From Candidatus Methanovirga procula (GTDB lineage Archaea > Methanobacteriota > Methanobacteria > Methanobacteriales > Methanobacteriaceae), in the NCBI GenBank assembly GCA_031280375.1, contig JAITGU010000065.1, forward strand, positions 1 to 32,582: a DNA stretch of 32,582 nt, read 5' to 3'. A program made the position numbers and the translations under genes. Below the pieces are notes generated by a model. It worked only from the letters and a program-made list of their open reading frames with translations, was not told where the DNA came from and did not search any database. Shown here piece by piece: positions 2,732 to 30,804 of this stretch. Every line of letters begins with the position of its first letter. Position 1 is the stretch's first letter.

Positions 2732-3721
2732 ATGAAAAATGCACAATTATCTGTTTTTTTACCAGATTCATTCTTAACAGAGACTAAAGATTTAAAGCTT
2801 AAAACCTCTAAAATAGGGATTATTGGAAGGGCTTTAGCTATTTTCAATGTAAATAAAGTTGTTATTTATAAGGATACAACTGAAAATCCTTTTTCTAATA
2901 CTAACTCTGATAGAAATAGCTTAAATAGAGATAATTTGAATAGATATAGATTGAGTAGAGATAGTTCTAATGGACATAGTCTTAATAGACATAGTTCGAA
3001 TAGAGATAATTTATATAAGGGTAATTCAGATAAAAACTATTTAAGTAGAAGTGTTTCTGATGGAGAACTTATCTCTAAACTTCTTAGATATATGGATACT
3101 CCCCAGTATCTTAGAAAAAATGTTTTTCCTATTGAATCTGATCTTAAACATGTGGGAATACTTCCTCCATTGCGAACTCCGAATCATCCTACTGGTGAAA
3201 ATTTTGGATTAGGTCAGTATAGGCAGGGATTAACTGTTAAGAGGAATAAGAAGGGAACATTTGTAGATATTGGACTTGATGAATTAGTTTTTTGTAAAGA
3301 ACAACTTACCGTTAATAAAGTTTTTAGTTTTAAAGTTGTTAAAATAGCTAAAGAGATATTAATAACTCCAGATACACCGACTGATCTGTATTGGGGTTAT
3401 GAGACAATATATGCAGAAAAAACTCTGAAAAACAGTTTAAAATTAGTTGATCCAGATTTTATTTTAGTCACAACAAGATATGGTGATAAAGTAAATTCTA
3501 TTTTTGATAATTTAAAACTTAAAGCTATTAATTCTAAAAGTATAGCATTAATATTTGGAGGACCTTATAATGGGATCCCTGAAAATGTTTGTGAAAGTAT
3601 TCGGACTTTCAAATCAGATGTTGTAGAGGTTAATATGGTTCCAAATCAAGGGACAGAGACAGTTAGAACTGAAGAAGCGTTAATTTCAACATTAGCTATT
3701 TTAAATGTAATGTTACAATAA
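2732..3721 (+). CDS. Putative RNA uridine-N3 SPOUT methyltransferase (MTH1 family)
   Basis: This is the 329-aa member of the archaeal family typified by M. thermautotrophicus MTH1: a SPOUT-fold, AdoMet-dependent methyltransferase with an inserted OB-like domain, thought to act on rRNA. Conserved stretches are SVFLPDSFLTETKDLK (7-22), YMDTPQYLR then VFP (about 120-133), GILPPLRTPNHPTGEN, YRQGLTVKR, the SPOUT-side LIFGGPYNGIP, and the C-terminal QGTETVRTEEA. Its place just before rpl3 is the usual one. The family is normally about 260-270 aa; the excess is a hydrophilic insert at residues 53-107 made of tandem pentapeptides (see 2918-3052). The ATG at 2732 gives the conserved N-terminus and has no SD, fitting a leaderless message. 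The family assignment is secure; the exact RNA target is unknown. Confidence 0.9.
   Translation: MKNAQLSVFLPDSFLTETKDLKLKTSKIGIIGRALAIFNVNKVVIYKDTTENPFSNTNSDRNSLNRDNLNRYRLSRDSSNGHSLNRHSSNRDNLYKGNSDKNYLSRSVSDGELISKLLRYMDTPQYLRKNVFPIESDLKHVGILPPLRTPNHPTGENFGLGQYRQGLTVKRNKKGTFVDIGLDELVFCKEQLTVNKVFSFKVVKIAKEILITPDTPTDLYWGYETIYAEKTLKNSLKLVDPDFILVTTRYGDKVNSIFDNLKLKAINSKSIALIFGGPYNGIPENVCESIRTFKSDVVEVNMVPNQGTETVRTEEALISTLAILNVMLQ
2918..3052 (+). repeat. Nine degenerate 15-nt tandem repeats in the methyltransferase gene
   Basis: Residues 63-107 divide into nine 5-residue units: SLNRD, NLNRY, RLSRD, SSNGH, SLNRH, SSNRD, NLYKG, NSDKN, YLSRS. The DNA consensus is near AGT-TTA-AAT-AGA-GAT. The units keep the reading frame because the period is a multiple of three. 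They fall in a loop between the first SPOUT strand (VVIYKD) and the conserved YMDTPQYLR segment. Confidence 0.85.
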
Positions 3722-23388: not shown

Positions 23389-23650
23389 ATTAACTATTTG
23401 GTTTTATGTGGGTTGCATTCTAACTATAGTTGGAAGTTTAGCAACTGTGTGGGGTCCTGGAGTTAGTGATCCTATTGTTAGAACTTTAAATACCGAAGTT
23501 CCAAGTATTGGAATATCATTAATTCTTTTAACCTATAATCACATGCTTGCTCTTTTGACTTTTGTCGCAACAAGTGTGTTTATTTCATTGATTTTACTTA
23601 GAGCTATCACTCGTTTAAAAGAGATTGGATCTGATTATAATGGAGGTTAG
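23381..23650 (+). CDS. ehaE: Energy-converting hydrogenase A subunit E (EhaE)
   Basis: The 89-aa subunit resembles MrpG/MnhG-type small membrane proteins: a first helix WFYVGCILTIVGSLATVWG followed by DPIVRTLNTEVPSIGIS and two more hydrophobic segments. It starts within ehaD and SD AAGGGTAAT lies in ehaD. Its final 27 bp plus stop are tandemly duplicated into the spacer before ehaF. Confidence 0.82.
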   Translation: MFELTIWFYVGCILTIVGSLATVWGPGVSDPIVRTLNTEVPSIGISLILLTYNHMLALLTFVATSVFISLILLRAITRLKEIGSDYNGG

Positions 23651-23679
23651 AGATTGGATCTGAATTATAACGGAGGTTA
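23621..23679 (+). repeat. 29/30-bp tandem duplication across the ehaE stop
   Basis: GAGATTGGATCTGATTATAA plus TGGAGGTTA (23621-23649) is repeated at 23650-23679 with one inserted A and one T-to-C change. The first copy encodes the ehaE C-terminus and contains the stop region; the second supplies the GGAGGT SD that sits 6 nt before ehaF. The duplication thus separated ehaE from ehaF while keeping an SD for ehaF. Confidence 0.9.
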
Positions 23680-23683
23680 AATT

Positions 23684-24193
23684 ATGGATTTAGGTGAACT
23701 TTGGAATAAATTATCAAATCCTGATAGGATCCCAAGAATTTTTTCATTAGTCTTAGCATTGTTTTTATTGGTTGGACTGATTGTACCTTTTGCTTTGAAT
23801 AATGATCAAATTTATCCACGGCCAGCTCCTCAAGAACAAATGCTTGCTGGTGATAGGGTTGCACCTTATGATAGGGGAGGAGATATATTAGAGACACCAG
23901 GAATTACAGTTGCTCAATATCCACAGTATAGTAAAAAGATTGGTATGATAAATTCATATATGTCCCCAATAGCTTACAATATTAAAGAAAGTTCGCCATA
24001 CTTTGGGACATCAATCTATTCTTCTCCTGGTGGTTTAATAGATGAAATATTGTATTATACCAGAGGGTTTGATACAATATTAGAATCAAGCATTTTAATG
24101 ATGTCTTTTGTTATCGCTTCTTGGTTAGCTCTGAATTTTACTATGCGAGACAAAGATAAAAATGAAGATGAAGAATCTGAAGATAATGATTAG
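23684..24193 (+). CDS. ehaF: Energy-converting hydrogenase A subunit F (EhaF)
   Basis: The 169-aa subunit has a membrane helix at about 19-40, a roughly 95-residue loop with PYDRGGDILETPGITVAQYP that should lie outside the membrane, a second helix at about 137-153, and a very acidic tail (DKNEDEESEDND). It has no cofactor motif. SD GGAGGT from the second duplication copy supports ATG 23684. Assignment rests on size, topology and order. Confidence 0.83.
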   Translation: MDLGELWNKLSNPDRIPRIFSLVLALFLLVGLIVPFALNNDQIYPRPAPQEQMLAGDRVAPYDRGGDILETPGITVAQYPQYSKKIGMINSYMSPIAYNIKESSPYFGTSIYSSPGGLIDEILYYTRGFDTILESSILMMSFVIASWLALNFTMRDKDKNEDEESEDND

Positions 24194-26198: not shown

Positions 26199-28196
26199 TT
26201 GAACGGTTTCAATCAGAAGTTAAAAGATATTTTAAGAACAAACAAGGAATATGTTGATGAAGATAATAATTTATTAAAAGAAAAAATCGTCGATGATTCA
26301 TTAAAACAAGCAAAAAAACTTATCAAGTTATTAATTAAAGATGATGAATTTTTAAATGTTTTTTTTGAAGATGTTGAAGGATATAAAGTTTTTAATTATA
26401 ATAAATTCAATGATTATATAGATAAGAAAAACTTTTTAAGTAATTCATATACTCAATTTAAGAATAGGGTTGGTTTAAACATAAATAACAGATATTTAGA
26501 TGAAGTTGATAATGTTTCTCTTGTATGGCCTTTTAAAGATTGTATTTTGGAAGGAGGAATGAATAAAGAAGATATGAAAAGAAATGAGATATTTTTCAAT
26601 GAAACATTGGCACGAGATGAAATTGATAGGCTATTTGATGAAAAAGTTTTAAACAACTTCAAAAAAATAAGTTCAAAAGGAGAGGAAAGTTTAGAGAAAT
26701 TTAGAAAAGATAATGGAAATATTATCAAAGATAATTTGATAATAAACGGAAACAATTTATTAGCTTTAAGTTCTATTAAAAATCAATTTAAAAGGAAAAT
26801 AAAATTAATTTATATAGATCCTCCATTTAATACAGACAACGATTCATTTAGATATAATGATTCTTTTAATCATTCAACATGGTTAACTTTCATGAAAAAT
26901 AGATTAAATATTTCTAAAGAGTTATTAAGAGAAGATGGTCTAATATTTGTTCATATTGACAATAATGAAGAAGCATATTTAAAAGTTTTAATGGATGAAA
27001 TTTTTGGTAGAGATAATTTCATTAATATAATCTCTGTAAAGTCATCATCACCAAGTGGAGTTAAAACAAGTCATAGGGATAGAACGATTTTAAAATCACA
27101 GGACTTTATTCTGGTTTATGCGATAAATAAAGAGAATATAATTTTAAAGCCACAGTATATGAAAAAAGAAAAATGGGATACTCATTATTGTTTTTTCATT
27201 GAAAAAACTATTCATGGGTTTGAATTAATCAAGCTAAAAGATAAATTGATAGATGAAAATTTACTAAATATTGATGAAAGCTTAAATAATTTTGATATAA
27301 ACAATAAAAAACATAGAAAATTTTATATTGATAATGGAAATTGTATTGTAAGGAAAAGCACACATGATAATAAAGAAATAAAGAAAAAATGTGAAAAAGA
27401 ATATAAAGATCAAATATATGATCAAGATGGAAATTTTTATTTAAATAAAGATATGTTACAACCAGTTTCAAAATCTTTTCAAATAGTGTTGGATGGGCTT
27501 GAAATTAGAAAAGATTTATCTAATCTTTTATGCGATATGTGGACAGATATTGACTTTCAAAATACACAAAATCAAGGTAATGTAAGTTTTCCTAAAGGTA
27601 AAAAACCAGAACAATTATTATATAGAATTATTGACATGGCAACAAATGAAAATGATATAATCTTGGATTTTTATTCAGGTTCTGGAACAGCAGCAGCAGT
27701 AGCTCATAAAATGAAGAGACAATATATAACTATTGAGCAAATGGATTATGGAGAAAATAGTGCCATGATAAGGTTAAAAAAAGTTATTGGGGATGAAAAA
27801 AATGGAAAAATCGTTAATTATGATAATAAAGGAATGTCAGAATCATTGAATTGGAAAGGTGGAGGAAGTTTTATTTATTTTGAGCTAATGAAATACAATG
27901 AAGATGTCATTTCTAAAATTCAAAGTGCGAAAAGTAATGAAGATTTGCTTAATTTATGGGAGGAAATGTGTGAAAATTATTTTTTAAACTATGATGTGGA
28001 GATAAATAAATTTAATGAAAATACAGACGATTTTAGAAAGCTGAAATTAAAAGAACAAAAAAATTTACTGTGTGAAATGTTAAATAAAAATCAACTATAT
28101 GTAAATCTTTCAGAAATTGACGATGCTGAATTCAATATAAGTGATGAAGTAAAAAATTTAAATAAAAGCTTTTACGATGATTATAATGTTGAATAA
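26199..28196 (+). CDS. mod: Type III restriction-modification DNA methyltransferase (Mod)
   Basis: The 665-aa protein is a beta-class N6-adenine DNA methyltransferase of the type III Mod kind. The catalytic motif DPPF is at 207-210 (LIYIDPPFNTDND) and precedes the AdoMet-binding motif DFYSGSGT at 490-497, the order expected of this class. The region between (about 270-470) should hold the target-recognition domain. The start is TTG 26199 with TAAGGTG 5 nt upstream; no ATG fits better. No frameshift or simple-sequence tract is visible, so the gene looks intact. It overlaps res, and together they form a restriction system protecting against incoming DNA. The recognition sequence cannot be read from the protein. 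Confidence 0.92.
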   Translation: MNGFNQKLKDILRTNKEYVDEDNNLLKEKIVDDSLKQAKKLIKLLIKDDEFLNVFFEDVEGYKVFNYNKFNDYIDKKNFLSNSYTQFKNRVGLNINNRYLDEVDNVSLVWPFKDCILEGGMNKEDMKRNEIFFNETLARDEIDRLFDEKVLNNFKKISSKGEESLEKFRKDNGNIIKDNLIINGNNLLALSSIKNQFKRKIKLIYIDPPFNTDNDSFRYNDSFNHSTWLTFMKNRLNISKELLREDGLIFVHIDNNEEAYLKVLMDEIFGRDNFINIISVKSSSPSGVKTSHRDRTILKSQDFILVYAINKENIILKPQYMKKEKWDTHYCFFIEKTIHGFELIKLKDKLIDENLLNIDESLNNFDINNKKHRKFYIDNGNCIVRKSTHDNKEIKKKCEKEYKDQIYDQDGNFYLNKDMLQPVSKSFQIVLDGLEIRKDLSNLLCDMWTDIDFQNTQNQGNVSFPKGKKPEQLLYRIIDMATNENDIILDFYSGSGTAAAVAHKMKRQYITIEQMDYGENSAMIRLKKVIGDEKNGKIVNYDNKGMSESLNWKGGGSFIYFELMKYNEDVISKIQSAKSNEDLLNLWEEMCENYFLNYDVEINKFNENTDDFRKLKLKEQKNLLCEMLNKNQLYVNLSEIDDAEFNISDEVKNLNKSFYDDYNVE

Positions 28197-30804
28197 TAAA
28201 TTTCTATATGAAAAATTAGATTCAGAAATAGGTAAAAGAACCATTGAAAGGTTAGATATTGATGATGAAGTATTGTCCAATCTAAATCCTAAGTTTATCT
28301 TAAGAGATTATCAAAAATCTGCTTTTAGATACTTTAAAACTTATTTTGAAGATAATGAAATTGATTTTAAAGAATGTCCTATATCTGTTCTTTTCAACAT
28401 GGCTACGGGTTCTGGAAAAACATTAATAATGGCAGGATTGATATTATATCTTTATAAAAAAGGATACAACAATTTTTTATTTTTTGTTAATTCAAACAAT
28501 ATAATCGAAAAAACTAAAGACAATTTTCTAAATTCTCTCTCTAATAAATACCTTTTCAATGAAAAAATATCTTTTATGGATAGGAATGTTAACATTAATG
28601 AAGTTAATAACTTTGAAGGAATCAATAAAGAAGATATTAATATATGTTTTACAACAATCCAGAAATTACATTCAGATTTAAACAATGAAAAAGAAAATAG
28701 TATAACCTTTGAAGATTTCTCAAATAATAAAATTGTTTTGATATCAGATGAGGCACATCATGGACAAAGTAAAACTAAGCAGAAAACTATTTCAAATAAA
28801 CCAAATTGGGAAAATACTGTTGAAAAAATATTGAAGGTAAATAAAGAACATGTATTATTAGAATTTACAGCTACTATGGGATTAGAATCAAACGAAGAAA
28901 TTTATAAAAAATATCTGAAACGATTGTTGTATAAATATGATTTAAAAAGTTATGTTGATGATAGGTACTCTAAAAATATTGAGATTTTTAAAGTCGATGG
29001 CACCGTTGAGTATAGGATGCTATTGGCTGTTTTAATAAATCAATATAGACAGGATCTTGCAATTAAACATGGTATTAAAAATTTTAAACCAGTTATACTA
29101 TTCAAAGCAGTTAAAGAAATTAAGGAGTCTCATGAAAATCATGAGATATTTAGAAATTTAATTGATAACCTTAAAAAATATGATGTTGAGGAGATCAAAG
29201 AGAAAATAGATGACCAGTTAATTAAGAAAATTTTTCTTTTTTATGAATATGAAGACTTATCAATTGATAACTTAATAAGAAAAATTCAGATTAATTTTTC
29301 AGAGGAAAGATGCATAAATGTCAATGAAGGAAATTTAGATCTTAAAAAAATTCAAAACAACAAATCTGAAAAGAAAGAACTGATCAGGCAGCAGAGTATA
29401 CTCAACAATTTAGAAAGTAAAAATAATAGTATTAGAGTTATTTTCGCCGTTAAAAAGTTAAATGAAGGTTGGGATGTTTTAAATCTTTTTGATATTGTAA
29501 AAATATCTCCTGATGCACCATTGGCTAAAAACAAAATACATCCATCCACAGTTTCAGAAGCACAGTTAATCGGTAGAGGTGCAAGATATTATCCTTTTAA
29601 AATTAATGATTCCGATGAAAAATACAAAAGAAAATTTGATAAAGATTTAAATAATGATTTAAGGATATTAGAAGAGTTGTACTTCCATAGTTATGATGAA
29701 TCAAAATATATTAATGATTTAAAAAAGGCATTGGTTGAAGAAGGATTAATCAACGAAGAAATAGGGCAGCAAAAACTTGTATTAAAAAATGATTTTAAAG
29801 AAACTGAATTGTATAACGAAGGAAATATTTTTATCAATACCAAAAAGGAAAAGAAGAACTATGGTCTAAAATCATTTGAATCAGTGAAGTATTTTAGTGA
29901 ACCATCTACATATAATATACTTTCTGGTAAGGCAGAGAGTATAAATGCATTGGATGAAAAAAAAGAAATTTCAAAAACAAGATCCACCATTATTAAAGGA
30001 TTAAGTGATATGGAGAAACATATTATAAAAAATGCAATCTCTAAGATTGATTTTTATAGATTCAATAACATTAAGAAGTATTTTCCAGATATTAATTCAA
30101 TAAACGAAATTATCGATAACGATAAATTTTTAAATAAAATGAATATTAAATTAAAGGGTGATGAAAACGATTTAATTAATTTAACCAATAAAAATAAGTT
30201 AGATGCTATCTATAATCTGTTAAATCTATTAAAAGATGAAATCATAAATTCAGTATATGATTACTCTGGAACGAAATTCTTTGAAAAGCCAATCCATGAA
30301 ATATTCCATGATAAGGAGTTAAATATAGATAAAACAGCTGAAAGGTATAATGGAATGGAAGAGTACTTAAGAGATAAGGATTGGTATGTATTTAATGCTA
30401 ATTATGGAACTGATGAGGAAAAAGCTTGTGTGGAATTCATTGAATCAATAATGAAAGATTTAAATAAGAGGTTCAGTGAGATCTATCTTATCGGAAATGA
30501 AGAATTTTTTAAAATTTATAATTGTAAAGATGGTAGAGCATTTGCCCCAGATTTTGTTTTATTCATGAAAGATGGAAATGGAGAATCCATTAACTATCAA
30601 TTATTTATAGAACCCAAAGGAAATCATCTTAAAGCTTATGATTCATGGAAAGAAGAATTTTTAGAGTCACTTTGTTTCAATAAAAAACTTTTCAAGTATG
30701 ATGGGAGAGAAAATGAATATAAAATTATGGGGATGCCTTTTTTTAACAAAATGAATGAAAATAAGTTTAAAAATGATTTATTTGAAAAATTAGAAATTAA
30801 GTAA
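28177..30804 (+). CDS. res: Type III restriction endonuclease (Res), DEAD/DEAH helicase-nuclease
   Basis: The 875-aa protein has an SF2 translocase followed by a nuclease domain. Motif I is ATGSGKT (Lys 81), motif II DEAH at 191-194 (LISDEAHHG), motif III region FTATMG, and motif VI QLIGRGARYYPF near 463-474. The C-terminal PD-(D/E)xK endonuclease shows PDF at 791-793 and EPK at 812-814 (FIEPKGNH). All catalytic residues are present and the length is normal for Res. It cuts DNA after ATP-driven communication between Mod-bound sites. ATG 28177 overlaps mod by 20 bp; ATG 28186 would give an 11-bp overlap and is an alternative. Neither has a strong SD, suggesting coupling to mod. Confidence 0.93.
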   Translation: MIIMLNNKFLYEKLDSEIGKRTIERLDIDDEVLSNLNPKFILRDYQKSAFRYFKTYFEDNEIDFKECPISVLFNMATGSGKTLIMAGLILYLYKKGYNNFLFFVNSNNIIEKTKDNFLNSLSNKYLFNEKISFMDRNVNINEVNNFEGINKEDINICFTTIQKLHSDLNNEKENSITFEDFSNNKIVLISDEAHHGQSKTKQKTISNKPNWENTVEKILKVNKEHVLLEFTATMGLESNEEIYKKYLKRLLYKYDLKSYVDDRYSKNIEIFKVDGTVEYRMLLAVLINQYRQDLAIKHGIKNFKPVILFKAVKEIKESHENHEIFRNLIDNLKKYDVEEIKEKIDDQLIKKIFLFYEYEDLSIDNLIRKIQINFSEERCINVNEGNLDLKKIQNNKSEKKELIRQQSILNNLESKNNSIRVIFAVKKLNEGWDVLNLFDIVKISPDAPLAKNKIHPSTVSEAQLIGRGARYYPFKINDSDEKYKRKFDKDLNNDLRILEELYFHSYDESKYINDLKKALVEEGLINEEIGQQKLVLKNDFKETELYNEGNIFINTKKEKKNYGLKSFESVKYFSEPSTYNILSGKAESINALDEKKEISKTRSTIIKGLSDMEKHIIKNAISKIDFYRFNNIKKYFPDINSINEIIDNDKFLNKMNIKLKGDENDLINLTNKNKLDAIYNLLNLLKDEIINSVYDYSGTKFFEKPIHEIFHDKELNIDKTAERYNGMEEYLRDKDWYVFNANYGTDEEKACVEFIESIMKDLNKRFSEIYLIGNEEFFKIYNCKDGRAFAPDFVLFMKDGNGESINYQLFIEPKGNHLKAYDSWKEEFLESLCFNKKLFKYDGRENEYKIMGMPFFNKMNENKFKNDLFEKLEIK

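Follow-up and report, generated by a model that had tools for sequence, protein, structure and literature searches.

A tandem-repeat lengthened and probably passive loop in a SPOUT RNA methyltransferase of Candidatus Methanovirga

The window analysed in this work is the whole stretch of 32,582 nucleotides of Candidatus Methanovirga procula, and it encodes a SPOUT RNA methyltransferase in which one loop contains tandem 15-bp repeats. The question raised by this locus is whether the repeats have given a conserved enzyme a new hold on RNA, whether they form an array that still changes in length, or whether they are growth that the enzyme tolerates. The findings in this work are best described as a loop-lengthened version of a known enzyme family in which the added loop is probably passive.

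The methyltransferase and its 15-bp array

The gene of the COG2106/PF02598 SPOUT RNA methyltransferase was identified from the ORF list at 2732..3721 (+), with the stop codon within these coordinates, and encodes 329 amino acids. The ORF matched PF02598 with 187.8 bits (cut-off 27) over residues 6-324. The nearest solved relative by sequence in phmmer is 1k3r (MT0001, also MTH1, of Methanothermobacter) at E 8e-82, and human SPOUT1/C9orf114 (4rg1, 8qsu, and 8qsw) is also among the nearest solved relatives. The N-terminal half of the SPOUT domain (2732..2875, +; residues 1-48) consists of strand 1, helix 1 with Arg33, and strand 2. The rest of the methyltransferase (3065..3718, +) was aligned with 1k3r residues 54-262 and consists of the YMDTPQYLR helix, an inserted OB-like domain, the SAM-binding knot, and the C-terminal helix.

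The AlphaFold model was built on a 28-row alignment (A1), of which only two rows bear the insert, and has a mean pLDDT of 79.7. The model aligned with 1k3r at Z 32.2 (261 of 262 residues, 51% identity) and with human SPOUT1 at Z of about 27, and RsmE-type and other SPOUT enzymes followed at Z 15.5 and below. The assignment of the host to the MTH1 family, made in the preliminary description, is borne out by the Pfam, phmmer, and model alignments. A SPOUT domain interrupted by an OB-fold domain is a reported family feature (PMC1829167), and in the model the inserted domain is occupied by strands 163-213. Arg33 of MT1 is conserved and reportedly corresponds to the catalytic Arg of 2'-O-methyltransferases (PMC1829167). 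It is present in 28/28 rows of A1, where all invariant residues are located in the core. The frame has no internal stop in the six Methanovirga genomes (6/6). Since the family residues are kept and the fold resembles 1k3r, the window methyltransferase is an ordinary and apparently complete family member.

In a published prediction, the archaeal m3U at position 2619 of 23S rRNA (H. marismortui; 2584 in E. coli), a base of the peptidyl-transferase loop, is attributed to COG2106, partly on the grounds that its gene stands among ribosomal-protein genes (PMC2584109). The downstream neighbour in the window is rpl3 (ribosomal protein L3; 4250..5260, +), the start of a ribosomal-protein cluster. An rpl3 match was identified downstream on the same strand in 5/6 Methanovirga genomes (the exception is G001, whose locus is not long enough) and also at most of the other loci checked. 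For the target base, m3U4530 is reportedly described in the literature.

Three other features of the window were noted. Upstream of the methyltransferase gene, a DUF6056 membrane protein (264-1601, -) is split over overlapping frames; 264-1199 covers profile positions 160-337, 1281-1601 covers 9-98, and 1096-1419 lies between them. This gene has the appearance of a pseudogene broken by a frameshift, which would fit an eroding genome. A 30-bp direct repeat (23620-23679, +; 2 copies, 93%) ends in GGAGGTTA, and the DUF2106 gene at 23684 is thereby preceded by a duplicated ribosome-binding region. Downstream of ribosomal and other conserved genes, a DNA methylase (PF01555) and the ResIII helicase ORF that follows it with a 17-base overlap make up a type III-like restriction-modification pair (26559-30801, +).

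The lengthened loop consists of residues 50-111 (2879..3064, +), in which 62 residues separate VVIYKD from YMDTPQYLR. It is genus-specific in loop length, rich in Asn, Ser, Arg, and Asp, and predicted to be disordered. Within it, an imperfect 15-bp tandem array of ten units was identified at 2909..3058 (+) using TRF, codon shuffles, and a unit matrix; the first seven units are clear and the last three (8-10) are degenerate. The nine in-frame pentapeptide units described earlier at 2918-3052 were recovered by reading frame, TRF, and codon shuffles, and from 2918 they read SLNRD, NLNRY, RLSRD, SSNGH, SLNRH, SSNRD, NLYKG, NSDKN, and YLSRS. TRF reported 2910-3012 with period 15, 6.9 copies, 72% matches, no indels, and a score of 94.

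The lag-15 nucleotide identity of codons 50-111 is 0.614 compared with 0.370 +/- 0.034 when shuffled, and 0/20,000 codon shuffles match it, so that the description of the insert as a coding tandem array stands. The protein lag-5 identity of the insert is 0.246 versus 0.118 and is reached by 65/20,000 shuffles. In a scan of the window in 10,799 stretches of 186 bp, the best lag-15 identity away from the locus is 0.497. The periodicity of the array is far beyond chance. The lag-30 identity is 0.615, equal to that at lag 15, which hints at a ten-residue higher-order unit.

The pentapeptide repeat family PF00805 is known by the motif A(D/N)LXX. A fold of this family was considered for the array and ruled out, as only PF02598 and SpoU_methylase matched Pfam up to E 1. 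The 57-aa insert was searched in 6 genomes and was found at this locus only, in three of them (G000, which is the window's genome, G002, and G001), besides two weak unrelated matches (E 0.24 and 0.4). The unit DNA pattern alone shows nothing, since a reversed control pattern gave about as many matches.

The pLDDT of the model is below 50 only at residues 55-106, within the insert, and the core blocks are mostly at 80-95. The loop is thus predicted to be disordered, as the preliminary description had proposed. A weak helix at residues 55-69 was given no weight because the model confidence is low there. The loop starts at the C-terminal end of strand 2. In the SPOUT fold, this edge bears the cofactor site, and the fold topology therefore makes it likely that the loop is near the active site.

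Loop length and its growth within the genus

The loop length was counted from the Tyr of VIY to PQYLR. The loop is 77 residues in the window enzyme, 77 in G002, 57 in G001, 51 in G003, 44 in G004, and 33 in G005, and outside Methanovirga it is 20-30 residues in all 59 loci read. These 59 loci, in which a few species are present twice under two locus numbers, do not include 11 loci without a gap value and 2 without an ORF; the loops of L025 and L036 (26 residues) were read from sequence. The loop that was expected to be short and acidic elsewhere in the family is indeed short and mostly acidic there, with a net charge of 0 to -4 in 10 outside loci. The enzyme is called a variant since the loop joining strand 2 to helix 2 has 77 residues instead of the usual 20-30, and a short loop is usual in the family, not defining.

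A second (profile) search in 151 genomes identified 115 full-length matches. Counted by hand from the match listing, the 6/6 Methanovirga matches span 276-322 codons and the 109 matches from other genera span 274 codons at most. The insert is also absent from the more distant archaeal rows of alignment A1. The window protein is 88% identical over all 329 residues to the protein of Candidatus Methanovirga australis (L034, whose sequence reads as G002, the genome that corresponds to this record), which places the window in Candidatus Methanovirga. The genome collections hold one genome per species, so that all length comparisons are between species. In phmmer alignments the loop to PQYLR is 20 residues in 1k3r and 36 in human SPOUT1, and the site thus accepts length in other lineages too.

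The core tree, from which L018 was omitted for its ambiguous letters, joins the window and G002 at 100/100 and the five species with longer loops at 99/99. G005, with the shortest loop, is located outside the other five, and the support for this fork is only 83/70.

The repeats differ among the species. The G001 loop has three perfect copies of one 15-mer, with an exact lag-15 run of 30 nt that was reached by 0/5,000 shuffles. The G003 loop (L005) has seven-residue (21-bp) units with a peak at lag 21, reached by 8/3,000 shuffles after choice of the best lag. The periodicity of the inserts of G004 and G005 is not significant when the best lag is chosen (339/3,000 and 442/3,000 shuffles). The refuting case named in the preliminary description, in which all close relatives share one conserved, non-repetitive insert, did not arise. 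The inserts of the genus differ in both length and period. Because the repeat periods differ among lineages, several separate tandem duplications at one site are implied, which points to more than one origin of the loop lengthening in the genus.

The window and G002 both have 10 units in equal order and without any indel, across a dS of about 0.165. Unit-by-unit identity between them is 87% on average, compared with 61% among the window units and 67% among the G002 units. Since the units match those of the sister species better than they match each other, the ten units predate the split and their number has not changed since. On this comparison the window array is old and decaying.

This bears on the suggestion, made in the preliminary description, that the array may vary in length between strains. 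An array of this kind would be a live coding minisatellite or contingency locus. The units are in frame at 15 bp, the length varies among species, and the three perfect copies of G001 imply a fairly recent expansion there. However, the window units are diverged and the sister species matches them unit by unit, and the equal number and order imply that turnover has been absent since the split. The closest relatives compared, at species level, have 10 units each, and the array lies in a housekeeping gene next to rpl3 and not in one for a surface protein. We consider ongoing length change quite improbable in the window array, and the earlier suggestion is not upheld for the nearest species.

An assembly or sequencing artefact is scarcely credible. 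The sequences come exclusively from metagenome assemblies or draft genomes, in which repeats can be assembled wrongly. However, the array is only about 150 bp long and keeps the frame, and its unit order recurs in the separate genome of G002.

Selection on the loop and the two main readings

Between the window and G002, the core has a dN/dS of 0.20, compared with 0.84 in the insert (residues 50-111) and 1.23 when the array is taken by itself. The synonymous divergence is equal (pS 0.146 in the insert and 0.148 in the core), and the non-synonymous divergence is about fourfold greater in the insert (pN 0.125 versus 0.032). Non-synonymous and synonymous differences are 19:5 in the insert versus 20:26 in the core (Fisher p 0.005; per non-synonymous site p 2e-5). 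Protein change in the loop is thus nearly unconstrained. In a polar-class test, 16/19 loop changes stay polar compared with 13.6 (72%) expected, which is not significant (p 0.17; p 0.054 when mutation is assumed to be AT-biased). A constraint on the loop to remain polar is possible.

The window insert has 10 K+R and 7 D+E, a net charge of +3 in 62 residues, and the inserts of the six Methanovirga species range from -2 to +5. The positive bias that the preliminary description attributed to the loop is therefore weak.

The main alternative is that the loop is a selected flexible tether that contacts RNA, in which the disordered Arg/Asn/Ser-rich repeats, near the edge of the domain with the active site, hold pre-rRNA and were extended stepwise to strengthen or retune binding. 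Several observations are in its favour. The loop is lengthened in 6/6 Methanovirga genomes, Arg or Lys occupies unit position 2 in 9/10 units of the window and 10/10 of the sister species, and the net charge is between 0 and +5 in five of the six inserts while the ancestral-type loop is mostly acidic. The connection of the human homologue is also longer at the same site. However, the protein evolution of the loop is near neutral and its net charge is small; one species (G005) has only 33 residues and a net charge of -2; and no invariant residue of A1 is located in the insert, as judged from the two rows that bear it. We regard such a tether as unlikely, and the tuning of RNA binding that was proposed earlier is not supported by a loop that evolves near neutrality. 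A related reading, somewhat more doubtful, is that in protist-dwelling Methanovirga a disordered, repeat-built arm evolved repeatedly and independently beside the active-site edge as an adaptable RNA tether, with its length set by 15-bp duplications. This would be convergent tuning at one loop of an enzyme proposed to modify the peptidyl-transferase centre, and the site is also the one at which the human homologue is longer.

The explanation that we favour, and hold to be probable, is that a permissive loop grew by tandem duplication and that this growth was tolerated because selection is relaxed in a lineage whose genomes are eroding, while the enzyme was kept. The loop between strand 2 and helix 2 would have grown from about 20-30 to 77 residues via duplicated 15-bp units coding for Asn, Ser, Arg, and Asp. 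The repeats may have arisen through slippage or unequal recombination, in a genome that is AT-rich. Their persistence may be due to a surface loop that accepts extra residues and to weak purifying selection in this lineage of facultative protist endosymbionts. The enzyme reaction (the proposed m3U at 23S position 2584, E. coli numbering) would be unchanged and the loop would be largely a passive spacer.

Several observations stand against a passive loop. The loops of all six species are longer than those of every locus read outside the genus, and selection for length could be the cause. Free slippage would alter the unit number, yet 10 units were kept in the window and its sister over a dS of about 0.165. 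The 16/19 changes that preserve polarity are above expectation, though not significantly. Coding arrays are not enriched in the sampled stretches of the window's genome, and two of the six inserts (G004 and G005) have no significant periodicity. A passive loop is nevertheless likelier than an RNA-binding loop.

Lineage background and comparison with known systems

Candidatus Methanovirga has been reported from lower termites, partly inside gut flagellates (PMC10684969, PMC11287868, PMC13135261). Endosymbiotic Methanovirga are described with lower coding density and more numerous pseudogenes than their relatives (PMC13135261), and raised pseudogene counts are reported for the genus together with intracellular life in flagellates (PMC11287868, PMC13135261). 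These many reported pseudogenes, and the broken-looking gene upstream in the window, would agree with a methyltransferase gene that is being lost, with loop growth as a symptom of a decaying enzyme. However, the frame is open in 6/6 genomes, the core dN/dS is 0.20, and the conserved family residues are present, which makes the loss of the gene very improbable.

In the sampled stretches, 267 tandem arrays were identified in 141.7 kb of non-ORF DNA of the window's genome (G000) compared with 25 in 49.9 kb of the control genome (G042). In-ORF arrays were counted where the period is divisible by 3 with at least 3 copies, in mechanical ORFs of at least 100 aa. A genome-wide outbreak of coding arrays was not supported by this count, with 2.35 rows per 100 kb of ORF in G000, 3.29 in G002, and 2.28 in the control. 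Period 15 accounts for 3/7 of these rows in G000 (the window array included), 2/4 in G002 (both in one ORF), and 0/8 in G042; an excess of period 15 in Methanovirga coding arrays is suggestive, and the rows are too few to claim it.

Two other 15-bp arrays were observed elsewhere. A coding array with a 15-bp period (L118 4811-4908, G000:C3), rich in Asn, Gln, and Ser, is located in a linker of a gene matching DNA_pol_E_B, which we read as the small subunit of archaeal DNA polymerase D (PolD). It was rejected as a parallel genus-specific insert, as the frame length varies widely, also outside the genus. A near-perfect 15-bp array with AATAGAAATTTTAAT units is located at about 738-863 of G004:C241 (L074 region), elsewhere in the G004 genome.

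Thirty window ORFs were matched to the ribosomal-protein cluster of G042. The sole large insertion among them is in the methyltransferase (56 gap columns), and the next-largest insertions have 18 and 14 gap columns. A lineage effect alone therefore does not explain why this gene has grown. We infer that the lineage background favours such growth and that a permissive loop sets its place.

In the six species, a single loop of a single enzyme forms a graded natural series (33, 44, 51, 57, 77, and 77 residues) within one genus, and the series displays steps of tandem duplication together with a measured loss of constraint. It is a clean case of a disordered insert growing within a conserved housekeeping protein, seen in a lineage of archaea that is entering endosymbiosis. 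If the loop binds RNA, the series would let the effect on rRNA modification be measured against length. It is likelier that the loop does not, and the series would then represent ordinary, tolerated low-complexity growth. Among the papers listed in literature searches on such inserts in archaea and endosymbionts, none concerned the loop of this enzyme, which is not proof of absence.

Compared with known systems, the window enzyme shares with MT0001/MTH1 (1k3r) the whole fold, including the inserted OB-like domain, and the invariant residues. The COG2106 family is otherwise described as encoded beside ribosomal-protein genes, as is the window gene (PMC2584109). The difference is the loop after strand 2, which has 20 residues to PQYLR in MT0001/MTH1 and 77 in the window enzyme. 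Human SPOUT1 (CENP-32, C9orf114; 4rg1, 8qsu-8qsw) has the same fold, with the connection lengthened at the same place. However, the human connection is of unrelated sequence and is not repetitive in the alignment, and the core identity to the window enzyme is 31-32%.

Yeast Upa1 (YGR283C) and Upa2 (YMR310C) are paralogues in the methyltransferase's family and are described as bound to the earliest pre-60S particle (PMC8994135). They form a eukaryotic heterodimer, whereas a homodimer is expected for the archaeal protein. The Asn-rich inserts described in Plasmodium falciparum are likewise low-complexity sequences coded by AT-rich DNA, located within or between the domains of conserved proteins (PMC7534687). 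Unlike the inserts described there, the window insert has a periodic five-residue unit of Asn, Ser, Arg, and Asp without homopeptide runs, and it is archaeal and was found at one site in one genus.
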